Below are positions 47,016 through 51,597 of a stretch of 64,000 bases of DNA, one piece after another (positions within the stretch are counted from its first letter, which is position 1; the number at the start of each line of letters is the position of its first letter). The DNA lies in the NCBI GenBank assembly GCA_022750155.1, contig JAKIWG010000003.1, positions 35,351 to 99,350 of the forward strand, given 5' to 3'. Under the pieces are notes generated by a model. The model did not search any database and was not told where the DNA came from. It was given only the letters and a program-made list of their open reading frames with translations. The translations under genes were made by a program, and so were the position numbers. Source of the stretch: Thermoplasmata archaeon (GTDB taxonomy: Archaea > Thermoplasmatota > Thermoplasmata > Lutacidiplasmatales > UBA184).

Positions 47016-47846
47016 ATGGCAGCGCGCCCCCCCACATCTGGACTTGCCGACCTGCGTCGGAGCGGCGCCATCACAGAACTTCTGTTCCTGTACGCCTGTG
47101 CGACCGTCGAGCCCACCCAGCTCCGTCCGATCGCGATCGAACTCGGCGTGACGGTCCAGGCGGTCTCTCACTCCTACCGACAACTCGCGCGCCGCGGCCT
47201 CGCCGAAGTACGCGGGGGCCACTACCTTCCGACCGTGAAGGGCGTCGCCTGGCTACACCGGTCGCTCGGAAGGTTGGGAGAGGATGTCCACGGTCGGCTC
47301 GGCCGCCTGAGGGTCATCCGGAGCTGCCGGGCCGTCGCCCTCTCGGAGATCCACGACGGGGACCCGGTCTCGCTCCAGATGGTCGATGGGGTCCTCTCCG
47401 CCCACCGGGGCAGCGCAGGGCCTTCCAAGGGGGTCGCCGCACGAGGGGGTCCGGCGGGGAGCCTCGTCGAGGTGGGTGAGCTCGAGGGGATCGTTCCCAT
47501 CTCCCCGGCGCCCGTGACCATTCGCACCCTCTCCGATTCGGACCTGCACGACCGGCGCATCAGTTCGCGACTACGCTCGGCCATCTCACGCGAAGGCTCC
47601 GGAGTTCTGGGGGCCCAGGGGCTGGAGGCGTACCATCTGCTCCGCTCGGCGTCGCGGCGGCCCGTAACCCGCTTCGCCGTGGCGGCCGCGGCCCAGGAGG
47701 CCTCCCGGATCGGAGTTCCCGCGACGGTAGTCGTGCTGGACTCCGAGCTGCCCCGATTCCTGGCCGAGTTCGCCGGGAGCGCTCCGCCCCCCCTCCAGGT
47801 CGTTCCGCTAGGACGGGAGCGCAGGAGCGGCCGCCGGAACCGCTGA
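47016..47846 (+). CDS. Winged-helix transcriptional regulator (MarR-like N-terminus)
   Basis: A 276-residue regulator. The first 85 residues form a winged helix (AITELLFLYACATVEPTQLRPIAIELGVTVQAVSHSYRQLARRGLAEVRGGHYLPTVKG). The middle holds a small beta-rich domain (VDGVLSAHRG...LEGIVPISPAPVTI) and the C-terminus an alpha/beta domain (FAVAAAAQEASRIGVPATVVVL). This N-HTH plus sensor layout is found in archaeal regulators of unknown ligand. It is convergent with the ABC transporter operon, overlapping the btuD-like gene by 39 nt. Confidence 0.75.
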   Translation: MAARPPTSGLADLRRSGAITELLFLYACATVEPTQLRPIAIELGVTVQAVSHSYRQLARRGLAEVRGGHYLPTVKGVAWLHRSLGRLGEDVHGRLGRLRVIRSCRAVALSEIHDGDPVSLQMVDGVLSAHRGSAGPSKGVAARGGPAGSLVEVGELEGIVPISPAPVTIRTLSDSDLHDRRISSRLRSAISREGSGVLGAQGLEAYHLLRSASRRPVTRFAVAAAAQEASRIGVPATVVVLDSELPRFLAEFAGSAPPPLQVVPLGRERRSGRRNR

Positions 47847-49145
47847 ACGCCACCGGGCCTCGAGCGACCGGAGCTCCGCCTGGAGCGCGGGTAGACCGTC
47901 GACCTCCCGGGCCCCGGCCGAGCGAAGGGCCTCCCAGGCCCTCGCTCCGGCGCCCCCGGCGAAGTCCCGTTGGTCGATGGGGGTCGGTGCCAGGAGGTAG
48001 GTCGGCGTCTGTGGGACGAACGGTTCGAGGTCGTCGAGGTTGGCGATGTTCGATGGGCCCACGGCGAACGGGGCCACGACGATCACGCGGGCCTGCTCGA
48101 GAAGCCGACGGTGCGCCGAGCGCACCTCCGCTCCGAGAGGAGCGAACGGGACTTCGACCACCATCGGGATCCCGAGGACCTCGGCCGTCTCGGCGTCCGT
48201 GTCCAGCAGGTGGAGCGCCCCGGTCGTCACCCGATACCCATCGTCCGAGAGCGCCCGAAGGACGGGGGCCCCCGCCCCCCCTCCGCCGACCACGTGGACC
48301 GGACCGAATCCCGGACCCGCCAGGATCGCCGGGCCTTCGACGACCCTCTGGTGCGGCAGCAGGTAGGGCACGCCGGTGCGGGGGTCGCGGCGAAGGTCGG
48401 CCGTGACCCCCCACACGCGAGCGAGCAACCCCTCGGAGAGTACCCTGGCAGGGTCGCCATCGTCGTACTTGCGACCCCGGGAGAGAATGACGACCCGGTC
48501 TGCGAAGCGGGCGGCGAGGTTGAGGTCGTGGAGCGCCGCGATGACGGTGGTCCCCCGACGGCGCGAGAGGGTGCGCACCCGTTCGAGGATGTCGAGCTGG
48601 TGACCGATGTCGAGATGGGACGTCGGCTCGTCCAGGAGGATCAGCGGGGTATCCTGCGCCAAGGCGCGTCCGAGAACCGCCCGTTGCCGCTCTCCTCCGC
48701 TCAGGGTCTGGACCCCATCGTCCCCCCGGTCCCCCAGTCCGAGATCGCTCAGCGATTCTTCCACCCGCTCCCGATCCACGGCCGACTCCGCCTGGAACCG
48801 ACCCCGGTACGGGTAGCGCCCGTAGCCCACGTACTCCCGGACCGTAGGATTGTCGCGGTTGGCCTCCTCTTGGGGCACCCAGGCGACGCGCCGAGCCCGC
48901 TCGGTGATCGGGAGCTCGTCGACGGGGGTCCCGAAGAGCGTGGCCCGTCCCGCGCTCGGCCGGATGAACCCCAGGAGGACCCGGAGGAGGGTGGTCTTTC
49001 CCGAGCCGTTCGGGCCGGCGAGCGCCACGAACTCTCCGGCCCCGACGGAAAGGTCGACCTCGTGGAGGACGGTCCGGGACCCGAAACGGACGGTCACCCC
49101 CTCGAGACCGGCCACCGCCCTGCCGGAAGCCGACGGCGCCCTCAC
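47808..49145 (-). CDS. btuD: Cobalamin/Fe-siderophore ABC transporter ATP-binding protein (BtuD-like) with extra C-terminal domain
   Basis: Residues 1-250 are a FecE/BtuD-type ATPase: Walker A GPNGSGKT (44-51), signature TLSGGERQRAVLGRAL, Walker B LILLDEPTSHLD and the ALHDLNLAARFADR switch. About 180 further residues form a Rossmann-like domain (GPVHVVGGGGAGAPVLRALSDDGYRVTTGALHLLDTDAETA...VIVVAPFAVGPSNIANLDDL) found on some archaeal corrinoid transporter ATPases. The start GTG 49145 overlaps the permease stop (GTGA). The three-gene set (F, C, D) imports a corrinoid or a chelated metal. Confidence 0.9.
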   Translation of the reverse strand: MRAPSASGRAVAGLEGVTVRFGSRTVLHEVDLSVGAGEFVALAGPNGSGKTTLLRVLLGFIRPSAGRATLFGTPVDELPITERARRVAWVPQEEANRDNPTVREYVGYGRYPYRGRFQAESAVDRERVEESLSDLGLGDRGDDGVQTLSGGERQRAVLGRALAQDTPLILLDEPTSHLDIGHQLDILERVRTLSRRRGTTVIAALHDLNLAARFADRVVILSRGRKYDDGDPARVLSEGLLARVWGVTADLRRDPRTGVPYLLPHQRVVEGPAILAGPGFGPVHVVGGGGAGAPVLRALSDDGYRVTTGALHLLDTDAETAEVLGIPMVVEVPFAPLGAEVRSAHRRLLEQARVIVVAPFAVGPSNIANLDDLEPFVPQTPTYLLAPTPIDQRDFAGGAGARAWEALRSAGAREVDGLPALQAELRSLEARWRSAVPAAAPALPS

Positions 49146-50257
49146 GAATCCCCCATGGTACTCGCCTGGCGGCGTCGGTAGAGGAGCGTCAGGAAGAACG
49201 GTGCGCCCGCGAACGAGGTGAAGATTCCGACCGGGAGCTGGGTGCCCGGTAGGACCGTGACGGCGAGGTCGTTGGCTGCGAGGAGGAACAGACCGCCCGT
49301 CATCGCGCTGAGCGGCAGCACCACCCGGTAGTCCGAGCTTACGGTCCTCCGGACGATGTGTGGAGCGACCAGCCCCACGAATCCCACGACTCCAGTGAAT
49401 GCGACGGCCATCGCGGTGACGAGGGAAGCGAGCAGGATCAGCCGTTGCCGGAGCCGTGCGGTCGGCACCCCGATGCTCTGGGCGACGTCGTTTCCCAACT
49501 GCATGACGTTGAGTTCCCGCCCATGGAGGACGAGAAGGGTTGAGGCGATGAGGATCCCTCCGAACGCGACCCCATCGCGGTTCCACGTCGCGCCGCCGAC
49601 CCCCCCTAACAGCCAGAAGCTCACCTGGAGACTGCCGGTAGGATTGTACAGCAGGACGATCGTCAGCGTGGCCGAGAGGAAGCTCGCCAATGCGACTCCC
49701 GTGAGCAACAGGGTCTCGACCGAGCCGGACCGGCCCCGGGCGGCGAGCAGGATCGCCACGCCCGCCCCCAACGACCCGGCGAACGCCAACACCGGAAGGA
49801 CCAGGCTCGCCTCGGCCTCGCCGATCCGGAACACGTAGACGAACGCCGCTCCGAGCGCGCCGCCGCTCGAGAGTCCGAGCAGGTACGGGTCGGCGAGGGG
49901 GTTCCGGAACACCCCCTGGAGCGTCGCGCCCGATATCCCGAGCGCCGCGCCCGCGAGGAGGGCCAGGAGCAAGACGGGCAGCCGCTCGTCCCAGACGATC
50001 TCAACGTAGGCGGAGCAGAGCGGAGCCGAGTCGGTCACGCCCGCGCAGGGCTGGGCGTACACCGCCCCGCCCGACAGTTGGTGGAGAATGATCCGGAAGA
50101 CCTCCGTCGGGGGGATGGGGACCGACCCGACGAGGGGAGAGAGGAGCACGAGGGCAACCCCGAGAAGGGTGATCGCCAGCGCCGATCGCCATCGCCCCGG
50201 ATGGGGGGGGCGGGAGTGGGGCGACGCGGCGTCCACCGCGTCCGCCGCGGCCGACAC
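49142..50257 (-). CDS. btuC: FecCD/BtuC-type ABC transporter permease
   Basis: A 371-residue inner-membrane permease with about ten hydrophobic helices. It carries RLPVLLLALLAGAALGISGATLQGVFRNPLADPYLLGLSSGGALGA, the FecCD hallmark, and the cytosolic coupling segment QLGNDVAQSIGVPTARLRQR, then GFVGLVAPHIVRRT. A short Cys-containing loop (QPCAGVTDSAPLCS) lies outside after the first helix. Start GTG 50257 is 3 nt after the binding-protein stop. Confidence 0.93.
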   Translation of the reverse strand: MSAAADAVDAASPHSRPPHPGRWRSALAITLLGVALVLLSPLVGSVPIPPTEVFRIILHQLSGGAVYAQPCAGVTDSAPLCSAYVEIVWDERLPVLLLALLAGAALGISGATLQGVFRNPLADPYLLGLSSGGALGAAFVYVFRIGEAEASLVLPVLAFAGSLGAGVAILLAARGRSGSVETLLLTGVALASFLSATLTIVLLYNPTGSLQVSFWLLGGVGGATWNRDGVAFGGILIASTLLVLHGRELNVMQLGNDVAQSIGVPTARLRQRLILLASLVTAMAVAFTGVVGFVGLVAPHIVRRTVSSDYRVVLPLSAMTGGLFLLAANDLAVTVLPGTQLPVGIFTSFAGAPFFLTLLYRRRQASTMGDS

Positions 50258-50260
50258 GAT

Positions 50261-51307
50261 TCAGACCGGGACCCCGGGATGGAACAGGGCGAGCAGGGCC
50301 GGAAGGCCGTCCAGGATCATGGTAGGGTCAGGTTCCGTGAGGAAGTTCGAGTTCAGCCCGATCGCCCGACCGGACTGCACCGCGGCAAAGCTCGACCAGT
50401 CGGGCCCTTGGGCGTAGTCGGGGAGACCGAGGCCGAACCCCGTCCCATAGACGATGAACTGAGGTCGGGCGGCGAGCACGGCCGAGCCGCTGAGCTCTGG
50501 GTAAGGCAGGGTCGAGTTGGCCGAGATGCTCGTCGCGCTCGCGAGTTCGATGAGGGAGGTCCCGAAGGTCCCGGGTCCGAACGAATAGTACCCCGGCGAG
50601 GGGCTACCGGCAGCCACTGGCGAGTAGGTCACCATGACCGTGGGGAACGGTGTGCCGGCGTTGGTGAGGTTCTGCGCGACCCGAGTCGCGTTCCCCAGTC
50701 CCAGGGCAAGGTCGGCGCTGAGCAGGCTCGCCGATGCACTGGCATGGAAGAGGCTGCCGAGGAGGTCGACATCGAGCACGATCCCGCTCAGCGTCGTGGG
50801 CTGAAGGATCAGGACCGGGATCCCGTACGTAGTGCTGATCTCCTCGACGTCGGCGACCGAGATGATGGTGGAGGCGAGTACGAGTTGGGGGGAAACCGCG
50901 AGGAGCTGCTCTACGTTCAAGGTAGGCCCGACCTGCACACACATTGAGCTCGAGAGGTTCCACAGGGAGACTTGGTCCGAAGAGTAGTCGGCGGAGAGGC
51001 CACCGAACGCCGCACTGTAACAGTCGACGGCGACAACGTGGGAACGCAGCCCCAGACGGTACATGGAGTCCATGATGCTCGGGGAGAGCACCGCGACGCG
51101 GGATGGGTTCACGGGGACGTTGACCGTCCGGCCGACATCGTCGGTCAGGCTCATCGTGGTCGCGGAGGCGGAGGGGTGGTTCTGACGGATCTCGAAATAC
51201 GCCGCTGTGGCCGCCACGGCCGCGCCGGCCGCGACCAGGACGGCTACGGCGAACCACGCGAACGAGATAGACCGTGCCGGGCCGGTACTGGGGGGATTCA
51301 ATGACAT
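50261..51307 (-). CDS. btuF: BtuF/FepB-type periplasmic-binding-like protein
   Basis: A 348-residue substrate-binding protein with an N-terminal membrane anchor (residues 15-40) followed by the PBP2 domain: MSLTDDVGRTVNVPVNPSRVAVLSPSIMDSMYRLGLRSHVVAVDCY, VEQLLAVSPQLVLAS and the C-terminal AARPQFIVYG and AQGPDWSSFAAVQSGR. It captures a corrinoid or metal chelate for BtuC/BtuD. A TATA-like CCTTATGTG lies 24-32 nt upstream. Confidence 0.92.
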   Translation of the reverse strand: MSLNPPSTGPARSISFAWFAVAVLVAAGAAVAATAAYFEIRQNHPSASATTMSLTDDVGRTVNVPVNPSRVAVLSPSIMDSMYRLGLRSHVVAVDCYSAAFGGLSADYSSDQVSLWNLSSSMCVQVGPTLNVEQLLAVSPQLVLASTIISVADVEEISTTYGIPVLILQPTTLSGIVLDVDLLGSLFHASASASLLSADLALGLGNATRVAQNLTNAGTPFPTVMVTYSPVAAGSPSPGYYSFGPGTFGTSLIELASATSISANSTLPYPELSGSAVLAARPQFIVYGTGFGLGLPDYAQGPDWSSFAAVQSGRAIGLNSNFLTEPDPTMILDGLPALLALFHPGVPV

Positions 51308-51437: not shown

Positions 51438-51597
51438 GGGAGCATAGGCTAATTTGGTAGACCAGCGGGCTCCAGTCAGGCTCGCCGACCGGCGTGCCTG
51501 CGATTAGGTTCTGCGGAGGGACCCATGGGTCCCGATGACGAGTGACTGGAGCGCGCGGAGAGACCCGCATATCGGGGTTCAAATCCCCGTGCTCCCA
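51438..51597 (+). tRNA. tRNA-Trp (CCA) with an 87-nt intron
   Basis: Exon 1 is 51438-51475 and exon 2 51563-51597 (73 nt joined). Acceptor stem GGGAGCA/TGCTCCC with discriminator A73; D-arm with GG at 56-57; anticodon stem GCGGG/CCCGC; loop CT-CCA-G; T-stem CGGGG/CCCCG with TTCAAAT. Anticodon CCA reads Trp. The intron follows position 37: positions 32-35 (CTCC) pair with GGAG (51557-51560), leaving bulges AG^T and AG^A, a relaxed bulge-helix-bulge site as expected for the archaeal splicing endonuclease. CCA is not encoded. Confidence 0.9.
51476..51562 (+). ncRNA. tRNA-Trp intron, possible box C/D guide
   Basis: The 87-nt intron holds a C-box-like GATGA (51534-51538) followed by GACTGGAG (51544-51551), which is exactly complementary to CTCCAGTC spanning the anticodon (51470-51477). 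In many Euryarchaeota the tRNA-Trp intron is a C/D guide that directs 2'-O-methylation of C34. A clear D box (CTGA) is not found where the N+5 rule would want it, so this is suggestive only. Confidence 0.4.

Follow-up and report, generated by a model that had tools for sequence, protein, structure and literature searches.

A pre-tRNA-Trp intron of Lutacidiplasmatales as a probable dual methylation guide on a single internal kink-turn

The window, a stretch of 64,000 nucleotides from the 2.1-Mb MAG of a soil archaeon of the Lutacidiplasmatales (Thermoplasmatota), carries on its forward strand a tRNA-Trp(CCA) gene at 51438-51597, recognised in a local cmscan search as a split match to the Rfam tRNA model (44.5 bits) with an insert in the anticodon loop. 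Neither ARAGORN nor a whole-window Rfam scan at the gathering threshold returned this gene, presumably because of its intron. The 5' exon, nucleotides 1-37, spans 51438-51475 (+), with the anticodon CCA at 51472-51474 and C34 at 51472, while the 3' exon runs from A38 to A73 at 51563-51597 (+), with C39 at 51564; both assignments follow from the Rfam match and from the 89-gene alignment introduced below. Between G37 and A38 (position 37/38) lies the 87-nt intron at 51476-51562 (+), as originally predicted. Direct reading gives it a BHB motif with two 3-nt bulges, AG^U and AG^A, on either side of a 4-bp helix CUCC/GGAG, the anticodon stem GCGGG/CCCGC forming the outer helix. All of these pairs can form in 89/89 family members, making this a standard splice site. 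Beside the tRNA, on the reverse strand, lie a periplasmic binding protein-like ORF (50261-51307) and then permease-like and ABC ATPase-like ORFs (47808-50257), which by eye look like an ABC transporter of the B12 or siderophore type.

By the family we mean f1, the family of the window's host, in which the locus was matched in 91 of 103 genomes and yielded an alignment of 89 intron-bearing tRNA-Trp genes under six genus labels; stem covariation was scored on an alignment of 30 sequences. The family genomes lacking a match probably reflect assembly gaps, and pattern matches in them that suggested an intronless tRNA-Trp proved not to be tRNAs. A covariance model of the intron gave matches in 220 of 250 Thermoplasmata genomes, the weakest being other tRNAs, and 44 introns outside the family were read as an outgroup set that covers the two further families of Lutacidiplasmatales that were seen. 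The original prediction had named its own test, that close relatives should keep the box and the complement to the anticodon region, and the 89-gene alignment bears it out: kept across the family are the hairpin CAGG..CCUG, GGGUCUG-CGGA, a second hairpin, N-RUGACGA, NNGACUGGAG and CGYGC..GGAGA.

The centre of the intron is occupied by a D'-type box absent from the original prediction, CGGA at 51514-51517 (+), which reads CGGA in 84, CUGA in four and CAGA in one of the 89 genes. It is followed by hairpin 2 (51518-51533, +), a 6-bp stem, GGGACC CAUG GGUCCC, that has six or five pairs in 89/89 members; in the 30-sequence alignment all six pairs vary on both strands, with 97.8% of cells paired. 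Downstream, at 51534-51541 (+), the alignment of 89 places a 3-nt bulge N-R-U (51534-51536) and a C' box RUGACGA (51535-51541; RTGACGA in 84, RTGAAGA in three, AGGACGA in two). The GATGA string of the original prediction is present at 51534-51538, although the conserved register, RTGACGA, starts one nucleotide later; GATGACGA is read in 37/89 genes, most of the others differing in the first one or two positions. With D' CNGA in 89/89, C' RTGANGA in 87/89 and a covarying stem, the internal C'/D' motif is fit for a kink-turn or k-loop, and D' box, stem, N-R-U bulge and GA-N-GA together make up a predicted kink-turn whose G.A and A.G pairs fall on invariant positions. The 3b.3n pair that follows them is Watson-Crick in 87/89 family members (C-G in 84; A-U in the three with D' CUGA and C' RUGAAGA) vs U.U in 39 of the 41 scorable relatives outside the family. 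According to PMC4382518, ions by themselves do not fold a kink-turn that has 3b = C and 3n = G, and the idea that the CGGA/RUGACGA kink-turn folds without protein was dropped on account of this reported rule.

Behind the C' box lies the downstream 12-nt guide, GUGACUGGAGCG, at 51542-51553 (+), hereafter guide 2. Its core GACUGGAG (51544-51551) pairs with C32-G37 and with intron nucleotides 1 and 2, placing G51549 opposite C34, so that the 8-nt complement GACTGGAG with C34 stands as predicted, and in the window it grows to 10 consecutive pairs (51543-51552). Taken alone, a complement of this length is weakly above chance, an 8-nt match including C34 appearing in 4.5% of dinucleotide shuffles of the GC-rich intron; it is real because of its conservation, GACUGGAG being kept in 89/89 members with an unchanging spacing from the C' box, a spacing that guide 2 shares with the relatives outside the family. 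Across the Thermoplasmata, intron nucleotide 2 is paired with guide 2 in 133/133 cases (C-G 95, U-A 32, U.G 4, G.U 1, A-U 1) vs 106 expected from shuffles. The shuffles, here and below, take no account of relatedness, so that the comparisons are not probabilities, but the pair types of both guides recur in several families. Counting from the D site, C34 in the window lies at position 5 of a guide paired at positions 2-11, position 1 being a G.G mismatch with G30. Since the family's guide 2 has no D box from which N+5 could be measured, the choice of C34 as its target rests on homology and on the canonical distance found via C' in 89/89. The guide's own GGAG competes for CUCC 32-35 with the GGAG that forms the intron strand of the central BHB helix (51557-51560, +), as the comparison of folds indicates.

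The upstream 12-nt guide, GATTAGGTTCTG at 51502-51513 (+), or guide 1, has a family consensus of ...GGGUCUG that complements the 3' splice junction AG^ACCC, and the N+5 rule applied from D' points to C39. Its position 3 faces the last intron nucleotide and covaries with it, 124/130 being paired vs 91 in shuffles (G-C 90, A-U 24 and U-A 8); within the family the corresponding figures are 86/89 and 79. In L245, an intron outside the family, a C to U change at tRNA nucleotide 41 is matched by a G to A change in guide 1. Guide 1 is short, with 6 pairs. It is largely kept in the family, as its core GGGUCNG occurs in 76/89 members, and a G stands opposite C39 in 83/89 and is missing from six. The window itself has GGUUCUG, its guide stretch at 51507-51512 carrying a U opposite C39, and its closest sister L010, 95% identical, has G; the C39 guide may be inactive in the window's species, a second methylation having perhaps been lost recently. 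Two tRNA-Trp introns of family f9 (L267 and L275) carry an upstream guide without any match to the 3' junction, which may therefore have another target. Because both covarying positions paired with the guides are intron nucleotides, the pairing partner is the unspliced precursor.

Outside the family, all 44 introns sit at the same site and show the canonical order stem-C-guide 1-D'-loop-C'-guide 2-D-stem with four boxes. Guide 1 ends in GGGUNNN in most of them, D' is mostly CUGA, C' mostly RUGAUGA, and guide 2 reads NNRACUGGA..; guide 1 faces C39 five nucleotides before D', and guide 2 faces C34 five nucleotides before the D box. The outer D box is NNGA in 44/44 (ATGA 25, CTGA 8, GTGA 5, others 6), and by a crude test 33/44 have a perfect terminal stem of 3 bp or more. 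The corresponding D site in the window (51554-51557, +) reads CGCG, confirming that a D box is missing at the expected distance, and NNGA occurs there in 0/89 family members; the contrast gives a Fisher p of 3e-36, which overstates the evidence because the loss was probably one event on one branch. CGGA at 51556-51559 was rejected as an outer D box for guide 2, since it would put C32 rather than C34 at N+5 and since three additional nucleotides at this place in genera g2, g4 and g5 break its spacing. No conserved outer C box was found in the 89-gene alignment, so that the family lacks both terminal boxes together with their stem. In place of the relatives' terminal stem and outer C box, the family has a local hairpin 1, CAGG...CCUG (51477-51500, +), which covaries, three of its four basal pairs changing on both sides and 92.5% of cells being paired in the 30 sequences. 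From NNGA in 44/44 outside and 0/89 inside it follows that the outer D box was lost in the family ancestor. Divergence of the boxes, one of the options left by the original prediction, thus holds for the outer C/D pair, which is lost throughout the family; the inner D'/C' kink-turn persists, with the two guides still in position on either side of it.

The supposed kinship to euryarchaeal tRNA-Trp guide introns is strongly supported by these canonical introns with the same site and guides in other Thermoplasmata families. As these families carry the four-box version with both guides, the intron is, judged from its sequence, a homologue of the intron-encoded guides of Haloferax and Pyrococcus. 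The Haloferax volcanii intron and Pyrococcus sR50 are reported likewise to interrupt tRNA-Trp at 37/38, hold two guides with targets 34 and 39, and pair with intron nucleotides (PMC2584109, PMC7994747, PMC4090602). The Haloferax intron guides Cm34 and Um39 before splicing (PMC2584109); in vitro it can act in trans, and cells are viable without it (PMC4090602). The Haloferax and Pyrococcus guides have both C/D and C'/D', whereas in the family the outer pair is absent, the inner one is CGGA/RUGACGA with a Watson-Crick 3b.3n pair, and tRNA nucleotide 39 is C rather than U. The direct homologues are the other Thermoplasmata introns (L245-L288), which share the site, the two guide cores and their order; they differ by their outer C and D boxes and, in most cases, a short C'/D' loop, in contrast to hairpin 1 and the full internal kink-turn of the family. 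A match to sR-tMet (RF02163), in which a C box precedes a GACUGG-type guide, is weak (15.7 bits, E = 4.5, gathering score 50); sR-tMet is a free-standing gene with another target, tRNA-Met, and the match, far below the cut-off, probably reflects chance and shared box and guide letters. By its letters, then, the family intron is a derived homologue within a known class, lacking one of the features that define that class, the terminal C/D boxes; its pairing and targets are as in the Haloferax guide, and methylation by it is a prediction.

We favour the reading, to which we give odds of roughly three in four, that the pre-tRNA-Trp intron serves as a dual guide RNA for methylation, derived from a canonical box C/D sRNA and working on a single internal kink-turn. 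The internal D'-hairpin-C' kink-turn would be the assembly site for L7Ae, Nop5 and fibrillarin; the downstream guide, its pairing supported by covariation, spans the 5' exon-intron junction and would place C34 for 2'-O-methylation, and the upstream guide, with pairing supported in the same way, spans the 3' intron-exon junction and would place C39, so that in most family members C39 would be methylated as well. The pairing of both guides with intron nucleotides beside the splice sites makes the unspliced precursor the expected substrate. CUCC (32-35) would then be freed for the second GGAG, the BHB would form and the splicing endonuclease would cut out the intron. With the outer C/D kink-turn lost, one kink-turn carries the guides from within, instead of two flanking them, and the textbook design cannot apply because half of the usual protein-binding signals are gone.

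A different account, which we consider improbable, would have the complement serve pre-tRNA folding and splicing only, GACUGGAG keeping the anticodon loop sequestered up to BHB formation, and the C/D boxes being inactive relics. The two competing pre-tRNA folds are indeed predicted to be nearly isoenergetic (means of -74.8 and -75.2 kcal/mol over 89 sequences), the minimum free-energy fold is the one that uses the complement, by way of the CGCGC in the D box's place the pairing in the window reaches the anticodon stem, and the outer boxes are lost. Folding leaves unexplained, however, a covarying kink-turn with invariant G.A/A.G positions, a C'-to-guide distance fixed in 89/89 and a retained, covarying guide 1 paired with the 3' junction, and for these reasons folding instead of guiding, as the original prediction also allowed, is disfavoured as the sole role. 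More improbable still is an ordinary two-motif C/D RNP whose second kink-turn is present in unrecognised form, either through circularisation of the intron after splicing or in some other sequence. Archaeal C/D sRNAs and tRNA introns can be circular (PMC7994747), and circularisation would join the two guide ends around hairpin 1; yet inspection of the 89-gene alignment found no conserved G.A/A.G pattern on both sides of hairpin 1, and guides that pair with the exon-intron junctions act on the uncut precursor.

The host genome encodes fibrillarin, Nop5 and L7Ae, in keeping with the favoured reading. Two Nop5 genes were found in 29 of the 35 family genomes searched vs a single copy in all 112 other Thermoplasmata genomes that had a match. 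In the remaining six family genomes the single copy, wherever it is listed, is the divergent one, and the missing ordinary Nop5 probably lies in an assembly gap. The extra Nop5 adjoins an extra fibrillarin, the extra copies form their own clade with full support in the trees, and the methyltransferase core motifs of the divergent pair appear by eye to be kept; this tandem Nop5-fibrillarin pair, seen in the window's family only, lies in the host's own genome at G000:C50:24763-25835 (L301), listed beside C10:40317-40715 (L302) and C38:9846-10454 (L303). That it arose on the same branch as the loss of the outer boxes is suggestive, as one coincidence only.

Against the favoured reading stands the absence of the outer boxes, since PMC8413462 calls terminal C/D motifs crucial for activity and, for archaea, the second motif pair essential too; the shortness of guide 1, the six members lacking G opposite C39 and the mismatch in the window also weigh against it. 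The family may manage with one kink-turn, conceal a second site or carry a module in decay. That GACUGGAG and the kink-turn hardly vary across six genera argues against decay, although GACUGGAG could also be held by folding because it is paired with the invariant anticodon loop. We tentatively suggest, as a possibility of rather modest likelihood, an inside-out arrangement in which both guides sit on one hairpin-closed kink-turn and work without a terminal C/D motif, possibly as a dimer or with the second Nop5-fibrillarin pair.

Current understanding holds that an archaeal box C/D guide requires a pair of kink-turns that bracket the guide region. In some 90 related genomes, both guides have been kept, the outer kink-turn has gone and the inner one has acquired a full stem. 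The family therefore represents a natural experiment on the minimum needs of a methylation guide, and on which of the two, guiding or folding, maintains a tRNA intron.
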